The notes beneath the pieces were generated by a model, which did no database searches, had not been told where the DNA came from, and was given only the letters and a program-made list of their open reading frames with translations. A stretch of DNA of 64,000 bases from Candidatus Sumerlaeota bacterium (GTDB taxonomy: Bacteria; Sumerlaeota; Sumerlaeia; MWCT01; JAUWMI01): NCBI GenBank assembly GCA_030613245.1, contig JAUWMI010000024.1, forward strand, positions 1 through 64,000, written 5' to 3'. The position numbers and the translations under genes are program-made. Positions within the stretch are counted from its first letter, which is position 1. Every line of letters begins with the position of its first letter. Shown here in pieces: positions 1-30,997 of this stretch.

Positions 1-132
1 TTTGTTGTGCAACTTCCTCAATTGCTCGAGGAAATCTAAGAGCGAGATCTGATTCTGCGCCCCCCCGCCGATATTATATACGCGACCCTGGGTCGCCTCG
101 ATTTTCTCTATCGCAGCCAAAATCTCCATCAT
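1..132 (-). pseudogene. 5'-truncated copy of CDP-paratose 2-epimerase-like gene (runs off window)
   Basis: Positions 1-119 are identical, base for base, to 30137-30255, inside the minus-strand epimerase gene at 29951-30997 (about codons 248-287, containing YNIGGGAQNQ). The match breaks at 119/120. Two ATG codons in the same frame (130-132 and 127-129, minus strand) lie just beyond the breakpoint, so a short N-terminally truncated product is conceivable, but I see no good ribosome-binding site. The Rossmann domain is missing, so any product would not be an active epimerase. The copy may continue to the left of the window. It could be a real duplication scar or an assembly artefact. Confidence 0.8.
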
Positions 133-567
133 TTTAATTACTCGATAAATCGAACTTGTAACTAAGTATAGTGGCTCGGATAAAGTCCTTAATGAATCCG
201 CTTTGAGTTAGGATGTGTTCTGCAGGTGTATATTTCTTTTGCGAATTTGTTGGCTGTTGCGATTTTTACTTGAATGTATGCAAAACTTGCGGAATTATTT
301 CTTATTAGTTGTTGCAGGTAAGGGGCTTGATCTAGATGTTTTCACATGAATCGCACTATTTCGGCTGAGTTATAGAAGATTTGCTAATCGCCGTTCGTGC
401 TTCTTCCAGGAACATATTGATGTCCGGGACCGGGCGCACCCATATTTTCTACAACTCATTTACGTGAGCATTAAGAATTACATTGGGCGCATACTTTGTG
501 ATGTGAACTTACCTTCTCATTTTCATGGGGAGGTGAGACATGCTGTATCCCCTCTAGGGAGACGTAA
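120..567. other. gene-poor AT-rich stretch
   Basis: No convincing gene seen. A 76-codon open frame on the plus strand (464-694) has no family resemblance and overlaps the radical SAM relic in another frame. A short minus-strand open stretch around 355-450 reads like eroded coding sequence but I cannot name it. The region lies between the epimerase fragment and the split radical SAM gene and is probably recombination debris. Confidence 0.5.
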
Positions 568-741
568 ATGGAAGGTATTATTGTTGTTACCTACCGGTGT
601 AACGCTTGTTGCTATATGTGTCACACCTGGCAGCATTCATCAAATAAGGCTGATGAGATCACGCCTGCAGATATGGAAAAGCTTCCGAGCATGACTTTTG
701 CAAACATCACTGGAGGAGAGCCACTTCTCCGGATAGTGTAG
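568..741 (+). pseudogene. radical SAM enzyme, N-terminal fragment
   Basis: This 57-codon frame starts with ATG directly after an in-frame TAA and carries two hallmark motifs. One is the radical SAM cluster motif CNACCYMC (CxxxCxxC, residues 11-18), which binds the 4Fe-4S cluster and S-adenosylmethionine. The other is TGGEPLLR, the SAM-binding GGEP motif. Homology ends at the Arg codon 730-732; the next codons run to a TAG. The continuation of the same protein reappears at 2823, after two unrelated AT-rich genes, so the gene was split by insertion. The family is the short-N-terminus, CNxxCYMC type often found in biosynthetic and glycan loci; the substrate is unknown. Confidence 0.8.
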
Positions 742-2822
742 CATGTTTTATGTTAATTCATTATTGGAAGCGAATGAGATGCGGAGGTGAAAAGTGATAA
801 CAAAAGATACCAGGATTCTGGTCACCGGTTGTGGCGGAATGCTGGGAGAAGCGATTTATTCAAGTTTCTCTAGAATCTGTGTTGTTAAAGCCACAGATAT
901 AGATGTAAACAAAGAATGGATTTCCTATTTGGATGTGAGAGATTATCAATCTGTAAAAAGAGAGATCATTGAATTTAAGCCTACGGTTATTTTTCATTTA
1001 GCCGCTTTAACCGATTTGGAGTATTGTGAGCAAAATTCAAACGAAGCATATAGAACAAACGCTATAGGGACGGAAAACATAGCCCTTTTATGTAAAGAAT
1101 ACAACATTTTGGCAATTCATATTTCAACTGCTGGTATTTTTGATGGCAAGCAAGATGTATACAATGATTATGATTGCCCCAACCCGATAAATTATTATGG
1201 CAAATCTAAATACGCGGGAGAAGTATTTTTCAAATCTCATTTGGAAAAGTATTTTATTTTTAGGCCAGGGTGGATGATGGGCGGCGGTCCGGAAAAAGAT
1301 AAAAAATTTGTAAAAAAAATAATAGATCAAATTAATTCGGGGAAAAAAGAACTTTTTGTGGTTCTTGATAAATTGGGTACTCCTACTTATACATATGATT
1401 TCGCTAAAAATATGTTAGAGGTTATAAACTCCAGTTTTTTCGGCATATATAATATGGTATGTAAGGGGGAAGGAAGCAGATATGATGTTGCTCGAGAAAT
1501 CCTGAAAATTTTGAATCTAGAAAAAAGAATAAAACTTACAAAAGTGGATTCCGATTTTTTTAAAAAAGAGTATTTTGCTCCACGGCCATATTCCGAGAAA
1601 CTTTCGCCATTAAAATTGAAACTAAGAGGATTGTATAAAATGAGAAATTGGAAGGTGTGTTTAGAAGAGTATTTGTCAAAATACCACTGGTTAAAATAGG
1701 GAGTAAGATAGAAAATGAAGATTGCCATGATGGGGATTAGGGGGATACCTGCAAAATATGGGGGGTTTGAAACTTTTGCCGAACAGTTAGCTCCAAGATT
1801 GGCTGAGAAAGGACATCATGTTATTGTTTATGGCCGATCTAATATTATAAAGGACTACAAAACGGGGGATTACTATAAAGGATGTGAAATTGTAATTCTG
1901 CCTACGATCTCTCATAAATATTTAGACACAGTATGCCACACTTTTCTCTCGGTTATTCATTCGCTGTTTCATCGGTATGATGTAATTCTTATTTGTAATG
2001 CGGCAAACAGTGTTTTTGCTTTTATCCCAAGGTTAGTCGGGCAGAAAGTTCTTGTCAATGTGGACGGGATAGAGAGAAAAAGAACAAAATGGAATTGGCT
2101 GGGGAAATTATGGTATCTACTTGGTGAAATATTCTCTTCTATTTTTCCAAATGAAATTGTATCAGATGCAAAAGTTATTCAAGAGTATTATTGGAATAGA
2201 TACCGTAAAAAATCTAAATTCATCCCTTATGGTGCAAATGTTGGGAAATTAAATACATATCAAATCTTAGATAAATTTGGTGTAAAGCCGGAAGAATATG
2301 TTTTGTATGTCAGCAGGTTTGAACCGGAAAATAATGCGCATAGAGTAATTAAAGCATTTTCAAATGTTAACACGAAGAAAAAACTGATAATGGTTGGTGA
2401 TAGTCTGTATGCTTTAGAGTATAAAAAACATCTTTACGATTTAGCGAAAAGCGATGATAGAATAATTTTTACAGGCTATGTTTTTGGAACGGGATACAAA
2501 GAATTTCAGTCAAATGCATATTGCTATATTCATGCCGGAGAGGTAGGCGGCACCCCGCCGGCGTTGGTAGAGGCGATGGGTTTTGGAAATTGTGTTATTG
2601 CGAACGGAACACCAGGAAACATTGAAGTTGTTGGTGATGCAGGATTAATTTACGCAAAAAACGACGAAGAAGATTTAAGGAAAAAATTGCAATACATAAT
2701 AGATAAACCGGAAGTTATTAAATTGTATAAAGAAAAAGCACTGAGAAGAATTCAGGAATGTTATTCTTGGGAAACGGTTACGGATAAATATGAGAGTTTA
2801 TTTTTAAATTTATTGGGAACGT
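733..2822. mobile_element. inserted AT-rich two-gene cassette (RmlD-like + GT4)
   Basis: These bases lie between the two halves of one radical SAM gene. They are visibly more AT-rich than the flanking locus and carry exactly two co-directional genes, a sugar-nucleotide reductase and a glycosyltransferase. I found no terminal inverted repeats, target duplication or transposase, so this looks like illegitimate or recombination-driven insertion rather than a transposon. The boundaries are inferred from where radical SAM homology stops and restarts. Confidence 0.6.
794..1699 (+). CDS. RmlD-like NAD(P)-dependent sugar-nucleotide reductase/epimerase
   Basis: A 301-residue SDR protein of the RmlD substrate-binding family (dTDP-4-dehydrorhamnose reductase-like). 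It has an N-terminal Rossmann motif GCGGMLGEA (residues 13-21), the IFHLAALTD segment, and an active-site YGKSK (YxxxK) near residue 134. The family reduces or epimerises nucleotide-linked keto-sugars in the cytoplasm; the exact substrate cannot be read from sequence. No rmlA, rmlB or rmlC lies in this window, so rhamnose synthesis would need genes elsewhere. The start is GTG at 794, behind a good ribosome-binding site (gcggaggtg). It is followed 15 bp later by a glycosyltransferase; both are AT-rich and form the inserted cassette. Confidence 0.85.
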   Translation: MITKDTRILVTGCGGMLGEAIYSSFSRICVVKATDIDVNKEWISYLDVRDYQSVKREIIEFKPTVIFHLAALTDLEYCEQNSNEAYRTNAIGTENIALLCKEYNILAIHISTAGIFDGKQDVYNDYDCPNPINYYGKSKYAGEVFFKSHLEKYFIFRPGWMMGGGPEKDKKFVKKIIDQINSGKKELFVVLDKLGTPTYTYDFAKNMLEVINSSFFGIYNMVCKGEGSRYDVAREILKILNLEKRIKLTKVDSDFFKKEYFAPRPYSEKLSPLKLKLRGLYKMRNWKVCLEEYLSKYHWLK

Positions 2823-2824
2823 GA
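1715..2824 (+). CDS. GT4 glycosyltransferase with DUF1972 N-terminus
   Basis: A 369-residue GT-B fold glycosyltransferase. The N-terminus GIRGIPAKYGGFETFAEQL is the DUF1972 signature found in rhamnosyltransferase-like enzymes of polysaccharide loci. The C-terminal donor-binding half has LYVSRFEPENNAH and GGTPPALVEAMGFGN, the latter containing the acidic motif of GT4 enzymes. It probably transfers a sugar to a lipid-linked oligosaccharide at the inner face of the membrane. It follows the RmlD-like gene closely, has the same AT-rich composition, and its stop codon TGA falls at the right-hand junction of the inserted cassette. The donor sugar is unknown, though pairing with an RmlD-like gene fits a deoxysugar. 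Confidence 0.85.
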   Translation: MKIAMMGIRGIPAKYGGFETFAEQLAPRLAEKGHHVIVYGRSNIIKDYKTGDYYKGCEIVILPTISHKYLDTVCHTFLSVIHSLFHRYDVILICNAANSVFAFIPRLVGQKVLVNVDGIERKRTKWNWLGKLWYLLGEIFSSIFPNEIVSDAKVIQEYYWNRYRKKSKFIPYGANVGKLNTYQILDKFGVKPEEYVLYVSRFEPENNAHRVIKAFSNVNTKKKLIMVGDSLYALEYKKHLYDLAKSDDRIIFTGYVFGTGYKEFQSNAYCYIHAGEVGGTPPALVEAMGFGNCVIANGTPGNIEVVGDAGLIYAKNDEEDLRKKLQYIIDKPEVIKLYKEKALRRIQECYSWETVTDKYESLFLNLLGT

Positions 2825-2981
2825 GGATATTGAAGATGTTGTAGAAGTATTGCGTCGCAAGGCGAACCGAGTCGTCATCAGCACTAACGGAGCAGAGGTC
2901 ATTTATGTTCCCAATGGGGTAACAATACCCGAGATTCTCGCGCCTCATGATATAACACCGAGGTGGAATCTTAGGCGCTGA
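2823..2981 (+). pseudogene. radical SAM middle fragment fused to a GT4 fragment
   Basis: A 52-codon open stretch with no start of its own. Codons 1-23 (EDIEDVVEVLRRKANRVVI then STNG) continue the radical SAM protein whose N-terminus lies at 568-732. The charged helix and the ISTNG strand are what normally follows GGEPLLR in that family. From 2892 onward the resemblance switches to a GT4 glycosyltransferase: EVIYVPNGVTIPEI is the conserved NG(V/I) donor-domain entry, followed by ILAPHDITPRWNL. The frame ends at TGA. It is therefore a mosaic of two broken genes. The radical SAM assignment is firm from order and spacing; the GT4 part is from motif recognition. Confidence 0.7.
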
Positions 2982-3237
2982 TATCAGCGAAAGGGGTCGG
3001 GCAGGGGTCTATAGATTAATGTTGTAAGAGGAGGTATGTTCTGTTTATCTTTTTCTCTAGGGCAGAGCATACCAGGGGGCCAACAAGCAGATACTTCCAT
3101 ATCAGGGCGCAATGGAGAGGGGGCGGAGGTACAGAACCGCGTTCATGAGTGTGGGCGCTGTACTAGAGAAGCTTGACAGGATTAAGGGATTAATGGTAGA
3201 AGCACGTGTAGTTTATTGAACCTGCGGATAAGAGGAT

Positions 3238-3939
3238 GTGGATTATATCAATACAATAGGTACCCGCGCCTGGGGGTTCACGGATAGTATGAGTAGGCAC
3301 ACGCGCTGGAGCGGATTACTACTGGGCCTGGTGGTATTGACTCTCTTGGTGTTTTTGGAGGTTCAGGCTATCCGCAAGATTGGTGGGGAGTATTTTATCA
3401 ACCAGGCTCGGCTCAAAGGAAATGCTCAGGAATTCCTCCAAAATATGCGACGATCTCTCGGACTTGATTCCTCGAACGGGTTTGCTCATTTTCTCTTGTC
3501 TCGCTATTACGTGGAGACACGAAATTATCAGGAGGCACTCAACGAGGCTCTCCTTGCAAGAAAGAGTTTTATCTCGTTTAACGGCCTTATGCAAATCGGC
3601 TCCATTTATTTAAAAATACACAATTACAACATGGCAATTGAGACTTTTCGTCAGGCGAATCTTATGGTGCCCAGCAATGTAGTGGCGCAAAACTATTTGG
3701 CATATTCCTATCTGCGAACGAACGATGTTGAGCAGGCCAAGGAAGAACTATCTGCCATCCTCAGAAGCGATTGTCTTAATGCCAACTCACTATACTTAAT
3801 GGGTGTAGCGAGCGATATATCTGGAAAGCGGCGATTGGGCAGATACTATCATTATTGGGCTTTTCTCCAACAGCGAAAGAGAGAGAATCCTTTTTATGAT
3901 CGCGAATATCTCCTTAAAAGGATTCAGACTGTGAACTAG
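3238..3939 (+). CDS. membrane-anchored TPR protein
   Basis: A 233-residue protein with one N-terminal membrane segment (about residues 26-43, GLLLGLVVLTLLVFLEV) and a C-terminal part built of tetratricopeptide repeats (AHFLLSRYYVETRNYQEAL, YLKIHNYNMAIETFRQAN, and a third around LAYSYLRTNDVEQAKEEL). TPRs bind partner proteins. The position just before a second TPR membrane protein and a Wzz-like gene suggests a scaffold for polysaccharide export or assembly. The GTG start at 3238 follows a modest ribosome-binding site (aagagg); an ATG at codon 19 is the alternative. I recognise no enzyme domain. Confidence 0.7.
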   Translation: MDYINTIGTRAWGFTDSMSRHTRWSGLLLGLVVLTLLVFLEVQAIRKIGGEYFINQARLKGNAQEFLQNMRRSLGLDSSNGFAHFLLSRYYVETRNYQEALNEALLARKSFISFNGLMQIGSIYLKIHNYNMAIETFRQANLMVPSNVVAQNYLAYSYLRTNDVEQAKEELSAILRSDCLNANSLYLMGVASDISGKRRLGRYYHYWAFLQQRKRENPFYDREYLLKRIQTVN

Positions 3940-4036
3940 TCCAATGCACACTTCAGATTTTACTGCGCGCTCCTTGTATGTTGGCAGAGACTGTTAGATC
4001 TGATTGGTTTTGAGTAACTAGAGGATATCAGTTTCT

Positions 4037-5629
4037 ATGCAGACCAAGTCCCATGAGAGCAAACCCCGACGCCTGGGGCGAGCCACTATTGTGTTGCTTA
4101 TCGTGGTTCTTCTGGGAGGTGTAGCTATTGCGGTTCTTATTCGGGGAAACCATACCTTTTTCATGAAAAATAAATGCCATTATCTTATCAGCCGAGGGCT
4201 TTACAAAGAAGCGCTTGATCTGCTTCGTCCTTTGAATCAACGTTACCCTTCTGACCCAACGGTTCTGCACCACATGCTTCTTATTCATAACCATCTGGGC
4301 GACAATGAGAAGGCCTTCGCGTTGGCCAAGCAATTGGAAAACATGGCCAAGCCTGACAGGGAAGTGTACTGGGCTCTGGGGATACACTCCCTTCTGGCTC
4401 GTGATCTTGATGCTGCGAAGAACTCTTTCAGTGACTTCCCAATTACGGAACCTTTATCCCGACTGGATCGGGATACGTATCGTGTTCCATTTGTTCAAGG
4501 GATTATTGCCTATGTTGAACGCGACTATCAGTCTGCAGAACGGTTCTTAATTGATGCTTTGAATGAGGATGATGATGTTTACTTAACGCATCTTTATCTG
4601 GCAGAAACCTATATCAACAGAGGCAGGACAGATCAGGCAGAGGATTTCCTTGGGCTAACAAACAGCAAATTTCCCGAGAAGGCCGAGCCATGCGCATTAT
4701 TAGCTTCGCTATATTATCAAGAAGGTGATATGGATCGTGCCAGGTTCTATTTGGATAATGCTCAATTCCGTGGCTTGAACGCCTATGAAATGTTGGTGAC
4801 GGACATGTCTACAACATCAGGTCTGTATACACACAAGGATTTCGGCGAGTGTTTCCGGCAACTTGTGGATGGGAGAATTTACTCATCATGTACCCGTTTT
4901 GCTGGTAGAACGGAGCGAATGTATGGCGAGATTTTGCTCCACCTAAGGATGGGGAAATACCAAGAGGCTAAAGATTCGCTTGAAACTCTGCGCATGATCC
5001 AGCCTGAAATACCTGGAGTGAATTACCTGATGGCTCTGATTGTGGAGCAAATCGACGGGCCCGAGCAAGCAAAGGAACTCTTATACAGAGAAGTTGAAAT
5101 CAATCCATGGAATTTTAATGCTTACCTCAGATACCGGCAGCTATCGCCAGGTGCCTCCGACAGTCAAACAAGCCCGGCTATTGCACTGGTAAAGGAAAAT
5201 CTTGAGGGCAGAACAGTGGGTGAAAAGCGGGCGAAAACGGATTTCGCGTTTAATAAGGAAAACAATAACGAAGTGAAGGCACTCGTTAGTAATGGTACGG
5301 CACGAACTACCATGCAAGTTTCCAGTGACGGCGTCTACCTTCTTACCGTTATAGCTCGTGGCATGTCAGCCGGAGGAATATGGCCATTAATGTACGTCAA
5401 GATTGATGAATCTGATCCGCAAGCATTTTACGCGGACAGTCCCAATTGGAGAGCGTATAGCATCCCTGTCAACATTTACAGTGGCAGCCATACTGTCGAA
5501 ATTGAATTTGCTAACGATAAGATGGTGACGGCTGGAGGCAAAGAGGAAGACTGTAACCTGTTTATACAACGGGCTGTCCTGCTGCATGTGCCCCCGAGGG
5601 ACTTATTAGGCGGTTATGTGACGTATTGA
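4037..5629 (+). CDS. membrane TPR protein with C-terminal CBM36/60-like domain
   Basis: A 530-residue protein. Residues 1-17 are basic, about 18-36 form a membrane anchor (IVLLIVVLLGGVAIAVLI), and about 40-360 are TPR-like helices (YLISRGLYKEALDLLRPL, YLAETYINRGRTDQAEDFL). The last roughly 115 residues resemble Ca-dependent xylan-binding modules (CBM36/60): IARGMSAGGIWPLMYVKID, then SGSHTVEIEFANDKM, then EEDCNLFIQRAVL. In those modules the equivalent FxND...DRNL region supplies the calcium and sugar ligands. The topology puts TPRs and CBM outside the cytoplasm. The protein sits upstream of wzz and probably holds nascent glycan or organises the export complex; this is inference. A related tail occurs in the ligase at 27060-29525. 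Confidence 0.75.
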   Translation: MQTKSHESKPRRLGRATIVLLIVVLLGGVAIAVLIRGNHTFFMKNKCHYLISRGLYKEALDLLRPLNQRYPSDPTVLHHMLLIHNHLGDNEKAFALAKQLENMAKPDREVYWALGIHSLLARDLDAAKNSFSDFPITEPLSRLDRDTYRVPFVQGIIAYVERDYQSAERFLIDALNEDDDVYLTHLYLAETYINRGRTDQAEDFLGLTNSKFPEKAEPCALLASLYYQEGDMDRARFYLDNAQFRGLNAYEMLVTDMSTTSGLYTHKDFGECFRQLVDGRIYSSCTRFAGRTERMYGEILLHLRMGKYQEAKDSLETLRMIQPEIPGVNYLMALIVEQIDGPEQAKELLYREVEINPWNFNAYLRYRQLSPGASDSQTSPAIALVKENLEGRTVGEKRAKTDFAFNKENNNEVKALVSNGTARTTMQVSSDGVYLLTVIARGMSAGGIWPLMYVKIDESDPQAFYADSPNWRAYSIPVNIYSGSHTVEIEFANDKMVTAGGKEEDCNLFIQRAVLLHVPPRDLLGGYVTY

Positions 5630-10398: not shown

Positions 10399-11784
10399 AT
10401 GAAAACATTGTTGATCAACCCTGATTCACCGAAAATGTATGGAATTGGGGGTCAATGTGCTTTCCCATTGGGTTTGGGATATATCGCTGCAGTATTAGAG
10501 AAGGATCACGAGGTTAAGCTTATAGATGTCGCCGCAGAAAAACTTGATGATGATTCTTTAAGGGATAGAATCCTCAAGATATCTCCTGAAATAGTTGGAA
10601 TAACTTCAGATACTATCTCATTTCAAAGAGCGATAGCGATTGCAGAGTTGATACAACAGATTGATAAAGAAATTGTAATAGTAATTGGAGGTGCTCATTG
10701 TAATGCATTGCCGACTTATCCGCTCAAATATGATTGTTTTGACATAAGTGTATATGGCGAAGGAGAGAGAACAGCTTGTGAACTTTGGCATAGAATTGAG
10801 AGAAGAAAATCTTATGATGATGTTAGAGGGATAGTATTTAGAAAGAATGGAAAGATTGTTATTAATCCCAAACGGGAACTTATTGACAATCTCGATGAAT
10901 TACCTTTTCCAGCAAGACATTTATTTGCTATGAATAAATATATTGAGGAATCGCATTTGTATGCTTTTCCAGTTTATCCTATAGGCACTTCACGAGGATG
11001 TCCCTTCTCCTGTGCCTTTTGCAGCAATAATGTAGTTTTCGGAAGAAAGTACAGATTTAGAAGTGCCAGGAATGTTGTGGATGAAATTGAGATCTTAATT
11101 AATGAATACAACGCAAAGGGAATATATTTTAGAGAAGACCTATTTACAGTAAATGCAAAGAGAGTTATTGATGTTTGCAACGAAATCAAAAAAAGAAAAT
11201 TAGATTTTAAGTGGGAGTGCGAAAGCCGAGTAGACACGATAAATGAAGAAATGCTAAGGGTTATGAAAGATGCAGGGTGTGAGCTAATATGGTTTGGGGT
11301 TGAATCTGGGTCTCAGGAAATATTGGATTATATAAATAAAAAATTTACAATAAAACAAGTCAGGAATGCGTTTAGATTGTCTAAGAAGACTAAACTAAGA
11401 GCAGGTGCAAGTTTTATAATAGGCGTCCCTGGTGAAAAAATAGAAGATATATATAAGACAATCGACTTTGCCAAGGAACTTAAGCCAGACTTTGCATGGT
11501 TTAACATTTTTACAGGCTATCCAACTAGCCCATTGTACGAATATGTTGTAAAGAACAGCTTGTATGAAAAGAAAATATCTCATGGGATTTTGATTATTAG
11601 GACTGACAACTTTAATAGAGAGAAATTAGAAAAAATGCAAATATATGGAGATAGAAAAGTAAATAGAAATATAAAAAAGTTATTTAAGAAAGTATTATTT
11701 GAAATTAAACATGGAAATCTTACAAAAGATAAAATGATGAAAGGGATTAAATACATCAAACATTACTATTTCGGATCGGCGTAA
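10399..11784 (+). CDS. B12-binding-domain radical SAM protein
   Basis: A 461-residue protein with an N-terminal cobalamin-binding-like Rossmann domain (about 1-135; GLGYIAAVLEKDHEVKLIDV, VVIGGAHCNALP-like strand) and a radical SAM domain starting with SRGCPFSCAFCSNNV (CxxxCxxC, about residues 200-206). The DxHxxG histidine of methionine synthase is absent, as is common in this subgroup. Members methylate or rearrange unactivated carbons in lipids, hopanoids and antibiotics. In a polysaccharide locus it may modify a sugar or a lipid carrier. The ribosome-binding site aaaggagg precedes ATG 10399. The gene is visibly AT-rich against its neighbours, suggesting separate acquisition. Confidence 0.85.
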   Translation: MKTLLINPDSPKMYGIGGQCAFPLGLGYIAAVLEKDHEVKLIDVAAEKLDDDSLRDRILKISPEIVGITSDTISFQRAIAIAELIQQIDKEIVIVIGGAHCNALPTYPLKYDCFDISVYGEGERTACELWHRIERRKSYDDVRGIVFRKNGKIVINPKRELIDNLDELPFPARHLFAMNKYIEESHLYAFPVYPIGTSRGCPFSCAFCSNNVVFGRKYRFRSARNVVDEIEILINEYNAKGIYFREDLFTVNAKRVIDVCNEIKKRKLDFKWECESRVDTINEEMLRVMKDAGCELIWFGVESGSQEILDYINKKFTIKQVRNAFRLSKKTKLRAGASFIIGVPGEKIEDIYKTIDFAKELKPDFAWFNIFTGYPTSPLYEYVVKNSLYEKKISHGILIIRTDNFNREKLEKMQIYGDRKVNRNIKKLFKKVLFEIKHGNLTKDKMMKGIKYIKHYYFGSA

Positions 11785-27059: not shown

Positions 27060-29525
27060 TCATAAATCTTGTTTGCCGACAAAAACGTCGCCGCATGAGA
27101 GATTACGATCTTCATCCGATTCGGATAAAACCGTATCGTTGAGAAACCGTATGCGCAATTCCTGGCCACTGGGCAAACTCTGTTCAATCCAAACCATGTA
27201 GGGAGCTGGCTTCCCGCCTCGGACGTAGCAAAAAGTAGATTGATTGCCCACCGTAATTTCCACCAATGGATGAACGTTGATCACGGGAGTGCCTTGTATC
27301 CAGATCCATAAGGAGGAGCCAGCCGGGATTGCTTCTGTCAGCGTCATGGATATTATTCCCTTACTGTAAAGGGTTTCATTTCTTCCAATGCCTTCCACCA
27401 CTTTCCAATCGTGGGGTGTACCAATTCGGGCTAGCGAATCTTTGGCAAGGCGATACTCAGCAGAGATCTCTCCAAATCGCTGCGATTGAATGGGCGTTTC
27501 AGAGGGGAAATCAGAGGCTGTGAATGTATCTTCTTCGATCAATTTGCGCCGGATTTCTAATGCCAATTGTTGATGTCCTTCGCTAAAGATAAAGCTCAAA
27601 AGCGCTGACTGAACCGCAACGGATGATTTGTAATCTGCACGAGCCCACACCTCCTCCAGCATCTCTTCGACCGTTACTCCATAGTCGTGCGCCAAAGAAA
27701 GCAGCATGTCTGGGTCCTCACAATCACCCAGACTGAGCTTGAAAAGTGTATATTCGAAAAAGAAATGTCCAATCCAGTAGCCGTAGCGTTCCTGGTGATA
27801 GAGAGATTCGATGAAACGCTGATAGAGATTATCCGCCGCTTCTGTATTTTTTTCGTTGATGTAGATTTGAAGGAGATCGTAATACGCCTTCATGTTAGTG
27901 GGACTCTCGCGAATTTTTCCCTCCAAAGACGACTGCGTTTGAGCCTGTGAGGCTTCAACGGACTTGTAATAGCTTTTCGCCATTGCGCGAGAGACGGGTG
28001 GGATTGCTAAGAAACACACTCCATAGAAAAGGACGATGCCAGCTATCATCAAAGCAATTGGAAGGCGCCAGGATCTGATTCTGCTTCCAACGATTTGCTT
28101 TTCCGTGGCGAATCCCGCCTCACCAGACGTCCCAGGAATTCCAACAGCGAGCAAGAACCAGAATAGCGGGCCACTCAGGGGCAAATCCAGTGGGAAACTG
28201 GGCAGGGAGACAATAGCATAGAACATAACGCCCCCGATCAGAAATGGATACAGCAGATCCGAATTATGCTTGTTGATTTGCTTAAGACGGCGCAAACTCG
28301 CGCAAAAGAAAACGGCAAGGATAAGAAAAAAGCTCGCAATACCCCCAAGACCTATTCCTGTAGCAATTTCCAGATATTCATTATGAATATATCCGGGGGG
28401 AGTGCCTTCAATAAAAACCAGGATATCTCGATAGATGACGTTTTCAGGATCGGCTTGGAGGTCTGCAGCAGTATCCCAGAACGTGTCGGTAAAGCTTCTG
28501 AAGCCGGTACCCGTCAGCATATTTGCTCCCAGCATTTTCACAGCAACATGATAGCCATATGCCCGACTGAGGAGAGCCTGCTTATCGGTGACCCGGGTGA
28601 GCACATTATATCGTGGTGTTACGATTGGATTCGGCACGGAGAACAAAAGCATCAGCAAAATGAACGCCGCGCCCAGACAAGCCAGCAAAACCTTCACTCG
28701 TTTGGCTGCTGCTCCGCGCAAAATGCCTCCTACCCCTAGAAACAGCCCGACAACGAATAGTCCTACCCATGATCCCCGCGCTCCGGCCAGGAAGATGCAA
28801 TAGGCAAGTATAGCGAGAGCACCGATAGCGGCAATACGTGTCAAACGGCGTGTCGTTGTAAACACTAATGCCACACCCATCAGCAAAATGGGACCAAGGT
28901 ACGCACTAAGAAAATTGGGATGTCCTGCAAGCGACAGTACAGCAAATTTCCCTATCTTTTGCTCTTCCACGTATCCAAGCTCACCACGCCGAGTGGCAAG
29001 TTGTATATCAATGCCATAGTATTGCAGGATTCCGTAAATCGATAGGAGAACTCCAATGCCGAGTAGAATCCAGATGACTTTCGACAGATGGTATGCGGTG
29101 AACTTCAGATTTGCAGCAAGTAGGAAGAAGATAATACAACTCAGCGGGAAAAGACTTTCCCTTAAACTGTATAGAGGTGATCTCGAGAACAAGCAGGAGA
29201 ACAGGCAAAAGAAGCCAAATAATAGTGCCGGAATGCATACGGGATGACGGAATGCTCTCACAGGCACACGCAATATAACATGCAATACGGCTATCAGTAT
29301 CGCCAGATTGATGACCGACAGCTGGAAATAGAACGCCTGGCTTACCGTAGGCCTGGGAAAGATAAAGGCCAGTGTGAACGGAATCATGGAAAATGGAATA
29401 GAGGCGAGCAATGCAAAAATGCCCACAAAATTCATTTTTGCAAGGAGGGTTTGGGCATTACCGTGGGAAACCGGGAGTTGCGCGAAGGCTTCTAGATGAT
29501 TAGCTTGTTCTTTATTGTCCGACAT
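27060..29525 (-). CDS. O-antigen ligase/polymerase with TPR and CBM36/60-like C-terminus
   Basis: An 821-residue protein. Residues about 30-470 are polytopic with the Wzy_C/ligase hallmark LAGARGSWVGLFV and the large loop that follows (TGTGFRSFTDTFWD, YIHNEYLEIATGIGLGG). A last helix near 490-510 precedes TPR-like helices (AYYDLLQIYINEKNTEAADN). The final 120 residues resemble a Ca-dependent carbohydrate-binding module: SSLWIWIQGTPVINVHPLVE, ELRIRFLNDTV and DEDRNLSCGDVFV, the FxND...DRNL pattern of CBM36/60. This matches the tail of the TPR protein at 4037-5629. It probably polymerises or ligates surface glycan and holds it through the tail. It is convergent with the GT39 gene. Confidence 0.8.
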   Translation of the reverse strand: MSDNKEQANHLEAFAQLPVSHGNAQTLLAKMNFVGIFALLASIPFSMIPFTLAFIFPRPTVSQAFYFQLSVINLAILIAVLHVILRVPVRAFRHPVCIPALLFGFFCLFSCLFSRSPLYSLRESLFPLSCIIFFLLAANLKFTAYHLSKVIWILLGIGVLLSIYGILQYYGIDIQLATRRGELGYVEEQKIGKFAVLSLAGHPNFLSAYLGPILLMGVALVFTTTRRLTRIAAIGALAILAYCIFLAGARGSWVGLFVVGLFLGVGGILRGAAAKRVKVLLACLGAAFILLMLLFSVPNPIVTPRYNVLTRVTDKQALLSRAYGYHVAVKMLGANMLTGTGFRSFTDTFWDTAADLQADPENVIYRDILVFIEGTPPGYIHNEYLEIATGIGLGGIASFFLILAVFFCASLRRLKQINKHNSDLLYPFLIGGVMFYAIVSLPSFPLDLPLSGPLFWFLLAVGIPGTSGEAGFATEKQIVGSRIRSWRLPIALMIAGIVLFYGVCFLAIPPVSRAMAKSYYKSVEASQAQTQSSLEGKIRESPTNMKAYYDLLQIYINEKNTEAADNLYQRFIESLYHQERYGYWIGHFFFEYTLFKLSLGDCEDPDMLLSLAHDYGVTVEEMLEEVWARADYKSSVAVQSALLSFIFSEGHQQLALEIRRKLIEEDTFTASDFPSETPIQSQRFGEISAEYRLAKDSLARIGTPHDWKVVEGIGRNETLYSKGIISMTLTEAIPAGSSLWIWIQGTPVINVHPLVEITVGNQSTFCYVRGGKPAPYMVWIEQSLPSGQELRIRFLNDTVLSESDEDRNLSCGDVFVGKQDL

Positions 29526-29568
29526 CTGAAATCTATCTCACGCCAGTTCGAAGGGAGTCCTCATGTAG

Positions 29569-29700
29569 TCAATATTCGTCCAGGTTCTCCTTAAGAAACT
29601 CGATAGTGAGGCGAAGTACATCATCCAGCGAGTGGGAGGGCTCGAAGCCGATTATCTCTTTGATCCTGGTTATGTTCAAAATGCAAAAGGCGAAGTCCAG
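29569..29700 (-). pseudogene. NAD-dependent epimerase, C-terminal fragment
   Basis: The minus-strand frame reads ILNITRIKEIIGFEPSHSL, then DDVLRLTIEFLKENLDEY and TGA. The pattern (D/N)xxRIKExIGFEPxxSLxxxLxxTIEFxxEN is the conserved end of extended SDR nucleotide-sugar epimerases. No start or Rossmann part is present; homology fades at about 29690, next to the tRNA relic. A third epimerase remnant in this locus. Confidence 0.7.
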
Positions 29701-29950: not shown

Positions 29951-30997
29951 TCATCCCCCCGCGAAGAGTTTTGTAAAAAGGCTTTGATTTTCAAGCACCC
30001 AACTGTAGATTTTCCCTACTCCGTCTTCAATTGTTGTTTTGGGTGCCCAGCCAAACGCGCGTTTCGCTTCCCGAATGTCACTGACGTAAATCTTCTGATC
30101 CCCTGGCCGCCAGTCGGCAAATCTATACGCGATGTTTTTGTTGTGCAACTTCCTCAATTGCTCGAGGAAATCTAAGAGCGAGATCTGATTCTGCGCCCCC
30201 CCGCCGATATTATATACGCGACCCTGGGTCGCCTCGATTTTCTCTATCGCAGCCAGGTAGCAATCAATGAGATCGTCAATATAGAGCACATCGCGAACCT
30301 GCTTGCCGTTGCCGTAAATGGTAATAGCCTTGTTAAGCAGGGCAGCAATAGTAAACCAGCCGACCCACCCCTGGTCTTCCACACCAAATTGCCTGCTACC
30401 ATAAATACAGGATTGGCGAAACACAATTGTCGGGATGTTGTAGATACGCCAGTAATCCCGGACATATTGATCGCCGGTTCCTTTAGAGCATCCGTATGGC
30501 GAATAGAAATCTAGCGGCATCCGCTCACTCACGCCGTGAGGAAGATCAGCGTAGCGATATGCAGTCTCTCCTTCCTCGATTTTAACGTTTTCCATTTCGC
30601 CATACACTTTGTTTGTAGAGGCGTAGATAATAATCGGTCGAATACCCGCCAGGCGTACGGCTTCCAGGAGATTAAACGTACCCACGGCATTCACTTCGAA
30701 GTCTTCTCGCGGATTTTCCACCGACGTGGTCACTGCCACCTGGGCCGCCATGTGATACACGACCCGGGCGTCCGGGTGTTTGCGAAAAAGGTCTTGAAGC
30801 GTTGCGAAGTCGCGAATGTCGCCTTTGATGAACGTCAGATTTCCCTGTGACCGAAGCCATTCGAGATTCTGCGCTACGCCCAGGCGCTACATATTATCGA
30901 AAACCACGATCTCCTCGCCCAGCTCCATGAGCTTCCTGGCCACATTACAGCCAATGAATCCTGCCCCGCCGACAATCAGATTTTTTCGTCTGGCCAT
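29951..30997 (-). pseudogene. CDP-paratose 2-epimerase-like gene with amber codon 37
   Basis: Full-length (348 codons) SDR in one frame: [17 protein letters not shown] at the N-terminus, HMAAQVAVTTSV, STNKVYGE, YSPYGCSKGTGDQYV with YxxxK, and RQSCIYGSRQFGVEDQGWVG, the last diagnostic of CDP-paratose/CDP-tyvelose 2-epimerases. Codon 37 is TAG (30887-30889) inside VVFDNM-stop-RLGVAQNLEWL, where the family usually has Ser, so TCG to TAG is a likely single change. Translation could restart at MYHMAAQ (30760), but that product lacks the NAD-binding motif. Other genes here use TAG as stop, so recoding is unlikely. Other paratose genes are not seen. Part of this gene is duplicated at 1-119. Confidence 0.85.

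Follow-up and report, generated by a model that had tools for sequence, protein, structure and literature searches.

Near the left end of a contig from an uncultured bacterial lineage, the opening residues of a radical-SAM protein and the residues expected to follow them are encoded on either side of an AT-rich block that carries two sugar genes. Was a single gene interrupted here and, if so, by what and by which route? The stretch analyzed (the window) covers the first 64 kb of the 66,370-bp contig C16, with base 1 of the window being base 1 of the contig, from a 4.29-Mb genome assembly of 97 contigs and 96% completeness. Its left part is a polysaccharide locus encoding TPR proteins, a Wzz-like protein, GT4 glycosyltransferases, and epimerases. 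The evidence on the split gene and its insert comes from this single metagenome-type contig, and the features discussed are collected in Table 1.

Table 1. Features of the interrupted radical-SAM locus (window coordinates)
Feature	Position	Strand	Basis
Radical-SAM remnant, residues 1-55 (CxxxCxxC, GGEPLLR)	568..732	+	66-67% identity to the intact G009/G017 proteins; alignment
AT-rich inserted block, 2,090 bp, edges to ~3 bp	733..2822	+	GC contrast; protein alignment free of gaps apart from this block
RmlD-like reductase, 301 aa, intact	794..1699	+	PF04321 6.5e-58; GTG start, GGAGGTG ahead
DUF1972 GT4 glycosyltransferase, 369 aa, intact	1715..2824	+	PF09314 3.9e-14, PF00534 1.6e-20
Radical-SAM remnant, residues 56-78, next in sequence after 568-732	2823..2891	+	Alignment to intact homologues
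Remnant of the native DUF1972 glycosyltransferase (middle part), in-frame fusion with the radical-SAM remnant	2895..2978	+	Alignment to the G015 glycosyltransferase, shuffles

A radical-SAM gene in two consecutive pieces

The open reading frame that begins at 568 encodes MEGIIVVTYRCNACCYMCHTWQHSSNKADEITPADMEKLPSMTFANITGGEPLLR and then two codons of different sequence before the stop at 741, while the DNA from 2823 onward encodes EDIEDVVEVLRRKANRVVISTNG, the next radical-SAM residues in the same order. An earlier note on this DNA had assigned both pieces to one radical-SAM protein, and alignment to homologues confirmed this for the N-terminal piece with its CxxxCxxC and GGEPLLR motifs, whose PF04055 match (E = 0.0025) lies below that family's cut-off. 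When the 55 and 23 residues flanking the block are joined, none is lost or gained: the resulting 78-residue sequence is 63% identical to the protein of G009, 62% identical to that of G017, and 58% identical to one encoded on a Latescibacterota MAG contig (JAFGMP010000413.1), in each case without a gap at the junction, which upholds the proposed continuation from 2823. Joining also raises the bit score against G009 from 93.6 to 115. Identities to the homologues of G040, G006, G015, and G011 range from 37 to 45%. Across the junction position G009 reads GGEPFLR-DDVGEFVERLRKKSRRIVVSTNG, and most of these homologues carry x-D-I/V/L after GGEPxxR; intact relatives have residues of the expected kind at this point, and the two pieces match consecutive positions of a single protein rather than different families. 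The split of this gene by the block is real.

In the host genome itself, the next best matches to the joined piece are distant radical-SAM paralogues with at most 42% identity. A whole-genome search with the intact radical-SAM protein of G017 found no further part of the gene elsewhere, and about three quarters of it are missing, not merely displaced.

The block differs in base composition from its surroundings, as the earlier note had proposed, with 34.6% GC compared with 43.2% in the left flank (1-732) and 46.2% in the right flank (2823-5000). It is the most AT-rich 2,090-bp block in the window, and its genes have a GC3 of 0.30-0.31 versus 0.53 ± 0.07 (mean, s.d.) for the other window genes listed. 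A single AT-rich segment fitted by GC alone spans approximately 852-2850, with its right end near the protein-defined edge and its left end approximately 120 bp inside the block. Both sides carry the CG of an Arg codon (CGG at 730-732, CGT at 2820-2822), which fixes the edges to within about 3 bp; nearly exact edges stand, while single-base resolution slightly overstates the case. If the right side is taken as a guide and the target was CGT GAG, nothing was removed, and the ambiguity is at most the 2 bp of CG.

The native glycosyltransferase and the ancestral operon

The right-hand reading frame, previously taken as radical SAM along its whole length to 2981, leaves that family at 2891, after ISTNG. 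From 2895 to approximately 2978 it encodes EVIYVPNGVTIPEILAPHDITPRWNLR, the counterpart of which in G015 comprises residues 188-215 of a DUF1972 GT4 glycosyltransferase, EALYIPNGVDLPELLAPREITERWGLR (alignment score 105; maximum of 100 shuffles, 38). The same remnant scored 62 against the glycosyltransferase of G011, compared with 39 for shuffles, and barely or not above its own shuffles against those of G009, G017, and G040. Past 2978 no further glycosyltransferase sequence was found, the translated comparison stopping at approximately 2975, and a whole-genome search with the G015 glycosyltransferase located no pieces of the native gene elsewhere. Because its right end is glycosyltransferase, the idea that 568-2981 represents two halves of a single gene was rejected.

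A radical-SAM gene followed by a DUF1972 glycosyltransferase gene is the order found in five relatives (G009, G017, G015, G011, and G040), directly so in G015, and this order together with the remnant makes the ancestral neighbor of the radical-SAM gene known. The locus shares the radical-SAM protein and the gene order with these five, its glycosyltransferase remnant being closest to G015; unlike in the relatives, where the pair is intact, it is interrupted and mostly deleted here. The radical-SAM/glycosyltransferase operon underwent insertion plus deletions. From the sequence, the in-frame fusion is best read as a deletion whose ends lie near radical-SAM residue 79 and glycosyltransferase residue 188, with the remaining glycosyltransferase also lost. 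What survives of the earlier proposal is therefore a split gene but not a cleanly split one, given that only a remnant is left, and most of the radical-SAM gene and of its glycosyltransferase neighbor are gone.

The inserted reductase and glycosyltransferase genes

The block does contain the RmlD-like gene and the DUF1972 GT4 gene attributed to it, both intact. A Shine-Dalgarno-like stretch lies ahead of each, the pair is presumably expressed, and the TGA stop codon of the glycosyltransferase gene straddles the right edge of the insert. The reductase carries a nucleotide-binding motif (GCGGMLG) and a YxxxK motif (YGKSK); its match to PF04321 (RmlD_sub_bind) is well above the cut-off of that family, and its 204 bits against TIGR01214 fall below the curated cut-off of 224. 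For the glycosyltransferase, the nearest NCBIfam model is the Cps2T rhamnosyltransferase (NF046071), at 168 bits versus a cut-off of 500.

Among the 386 genomes sampled, the best relative of the insert glycosyltransferase (68-69% identity) belongs to another phylum and lies in a 30%-GC locus; the best relative from the host's own class is 53% identical. Phylogenetically, the enzyme pairs with the other-phylum glycosyltransferase (96/96), apart from the glycosyltransferases adjacent to radical-SAM genes (100/99). Transfer within the class is conceivable because G014, of the same class as the host, also has a glycosyltransferase of this clade. The best relative of the reductase (52%) likewise comes from another phylum and is directly followed there by a DUF1972 glycosyltransferase gene; such adjacent RmlD/DUF1972 pairs occur in G091 and, as a second case, in G225. 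The best matches of the two insert proteins lie in different genomes, so their joint transfer as a unit is no more than possible. Composition and phylogeny fit foreign sugar genes, and the two-gene insert apparently came from another bacterial phylum.

In streptococci, GacA is an RmlD and GacB is a DUF1972 glycosyltransferase that adds rhamnose (PMC6802508). A GacA/GacB-type module would carry out rhamnosyl transfer to lipid-linked GlcNAc. The insert similarly pairs an RmlD-like reductase with a DUF1972 GT4 enzyme and, by this analogy, is likely a rhamnose-type module; the comparison with Cps2T/WchF, the nearest model of the insert glycosyltransferase, would extend only to how the enzyme works. 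Unlike GacA/GacB and Cps2T, both insert proteins score below the curated family cut-offs, and their activities are putative. Elsewhere in the host genome are a second RmlD, above the cut-off, on contig C29 and one RmlC-family gene on contig C32, while all candidates for a dTDP-glucose dehydratase score below the cut-off. A literature search returned no paper on an RmlD/DUF1972 pair in this lineage. Since one DUF1972 glycosyltransferase was lost and another arrived, the exchange may represent a like-for-like transferase swap.

Plasmid carriers of the insert reductase were limited to matches of 31-34% identity at most, and viral contigs gave reductase relatives at 47-49% without an accompanying glycosyltransferase. 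The latter are twelve viral-classed contigs (L119-L130), mostly AT-rich (27-31% GC); on L122 the RmlD-like gene sits among sugar and methyltransferase genes.

How the block came to lie in the gene

Our preferred history, which we regard as quite probable as a whole, begins with an operon of a radical-SAM gene followed by a DUF1972 GT4 gene. A foreign, AT-rich piece of 2.1 kb, whose cargo was an intact RmlD-like gene plus a DUF1972 GT4 gene distinct from the native one, would have entered the only copy of the radical-SAM gene in a single event, between codons 55 and 56 and without loss of target codons. A separate in-frame deletion would have brought radical-SAM codon 78-79 next to a codon near 188 in the native glycosyltransferase gene, the remainder of which would also have been lost; any order of insertion and deletion is presumptive. 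Joining was most likely illegitimate, that is, homology-independent or dependent on very short homology. We infer this as the default mechanism, having found neither an exact target duplication beyond 2 bp nor a terminal inverted repeat nor a recombinase. The longest exact direct repeat around the edges is 7 bp and lies away from the insert ends. A resemblance of the left edge to the 3′ end of the insert glycosyltransferase gene was dismissed because it lacked significance (p values of 0.03 when judged within the insert and 0.11 when judged by shuffling), and no Rfam match to a structured RNA or intron was found in 1-5000.

Insertion of a mobile element that has since lost its transposase or integrase and left its passenger genes behind is unlikely, although it has more to recommend it than the other alternatives. 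It would suit the full preservation of the target codons and an imperfect 20-nt direct similarity between 731-750 and 2825-2843 (p ~0.002-0.03, by length and null; noticed post hoc), which could be a decayed target duplication and hence the mark of an element. Such decay, however, calls for the deletion of 4 bases, one insertion, and a number of substitutions, all within 24 bases that adjoin 165 bases without a frameshift. Furthermore, the insert ends score 5 for terminal inverted repeats against a background mean of 6.8, exact repetition at the very ends does not exceed the 2 bp of CG, and no transposase, integrase, or other recombinase reading frame occurs in 733-2822, whose only substantial genes are the two sugar genes. 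The hallmarks of an insertion sequence or transposon, terminal inverted repeats and a transposase or integrase, are lacking, whereas the locus does display the composition, discordant phylogeny, and edge remnants of horizontally acquired polysaccharide genes that displaced others. The earlier note's phrase "without a transposase" is true of the sequence as it stands but not necessarily of its past: no more than 732 bp separate the insert from the contig start, that edge is full of gene fragments, and an element may have been lost.

An assembly chimera, in which the assembler misjoined an AT-rich block or remnants, is slightly less credible again. The left neighborhood is filled with fragments, and window positions 1-119 exactly copy 30137-30255 at the contig end, as is typical of an unresolved repeat, so local assembly errors may have occurred; a chimera would nevertheless require two false joins at the same codon of one gene, with strand and order preserved, and block and flanks share no sequence of assembler-overlap length at the joins. 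Partial gene copies are common at this contig edge, and one might accordingly see two truncated radical-SAM copies flanking older AT-rich genes in place of one split copy. This is highly improbable, as the second piece resumes at the very codon after which the first breaks off, with nothing repeated or missing between them, a coincidence with odds of about 1 in 330, the number of codons in the gene. A programmed interruption, whose excision would restore a working gene, could account for the codon-exact break, but the insert has no recombinase and excision would restore nothing: the rest of the radical-SAM gene has been deleted and was not found elsewhere in the genome. We rejected this explanation, to which we attach virtually no weight, since the missing C-terminal part contradicts gene restoration.

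Foreign insertion into the radical-SAM gene, together with deletions, leaves a clear scar, but the turnover that it records is of a fairly ordinary sort and offers no look at a novel mechanism of insertion. The split gene alone does not reveal how insertion took place, and one product in one snapshot, devoid of mechanistic marks, does not bear out the earlier claim of a direct view of sugar-gene gain at this locus. O-antigen clusters of the Salmonella galactose-initiated group provide a precedent, having gained foreign low-GC sugar genes and retained wzy remnants shortened by serial deletion (PMC3715488). Foreign sugar genes, serially deleted remnants, and partial gene duplications are common to both cases, but the Salmonella clusters offer variants and insertion sequences across strains, whereas the present case is one contig from an uncultured lineage with no insertion sequence. 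It is ordinary polysaccharide-locus turnover of a known kind in a new host, unusually legible on account of its clear edges: within an uncultured phylum, a foreign reductase/transferase pair lies inside a native radical-SAM gene, and the remnants of the displaced pair can still be read.

Positions 1-567, to the left of the radical-SAM remnant, are a scrapyard of gene fragments, and the frequency of fragments and partial duplications at the edges of the locus makes the split gene less surprising. The 119-bp direct repeat at 1-119 derives from an epimerase gene segment; its left copy is cut short where the contig starts and, on the other side, loses the similarity abruptly at base 120. The corresponding epimerase frame (29951-30982, minus strand) is open over its full length except for one in-frame TAG (FDNM*RLGVAQN), which may mean that the gene has recently become a pseudogene, that its start lies later, or that the sequence contains an error. 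Positions 261-419 are 72% identical over 159 bp to 764-922 of contig C56 (L055), another polysaccharide contig, with the window copy frameshifted. The same contig carries, at 1016-1287, a 92% identical copy of 29402-29673 (272 bp), which comprises the start of a large membrane-protein gene (27060-29525) and its upstream region; the copy on C56 ends in a broken reading frame.

A broader proposal, in which the uptake of short AT-rich sugar-gene cassettes would be a recurrent event in this lineage, transposase-free and nearly scarless, with the split gene as one trace and 10399-11784 perhaps as another, strikes us as doubtful, about on a par with an assembly chimera. The latter region is a second AT-rich gene, encoding a B12-binding radical-SAM protein (GC3 0.29), that lies between host-like genes and is possibly another acquired gene.
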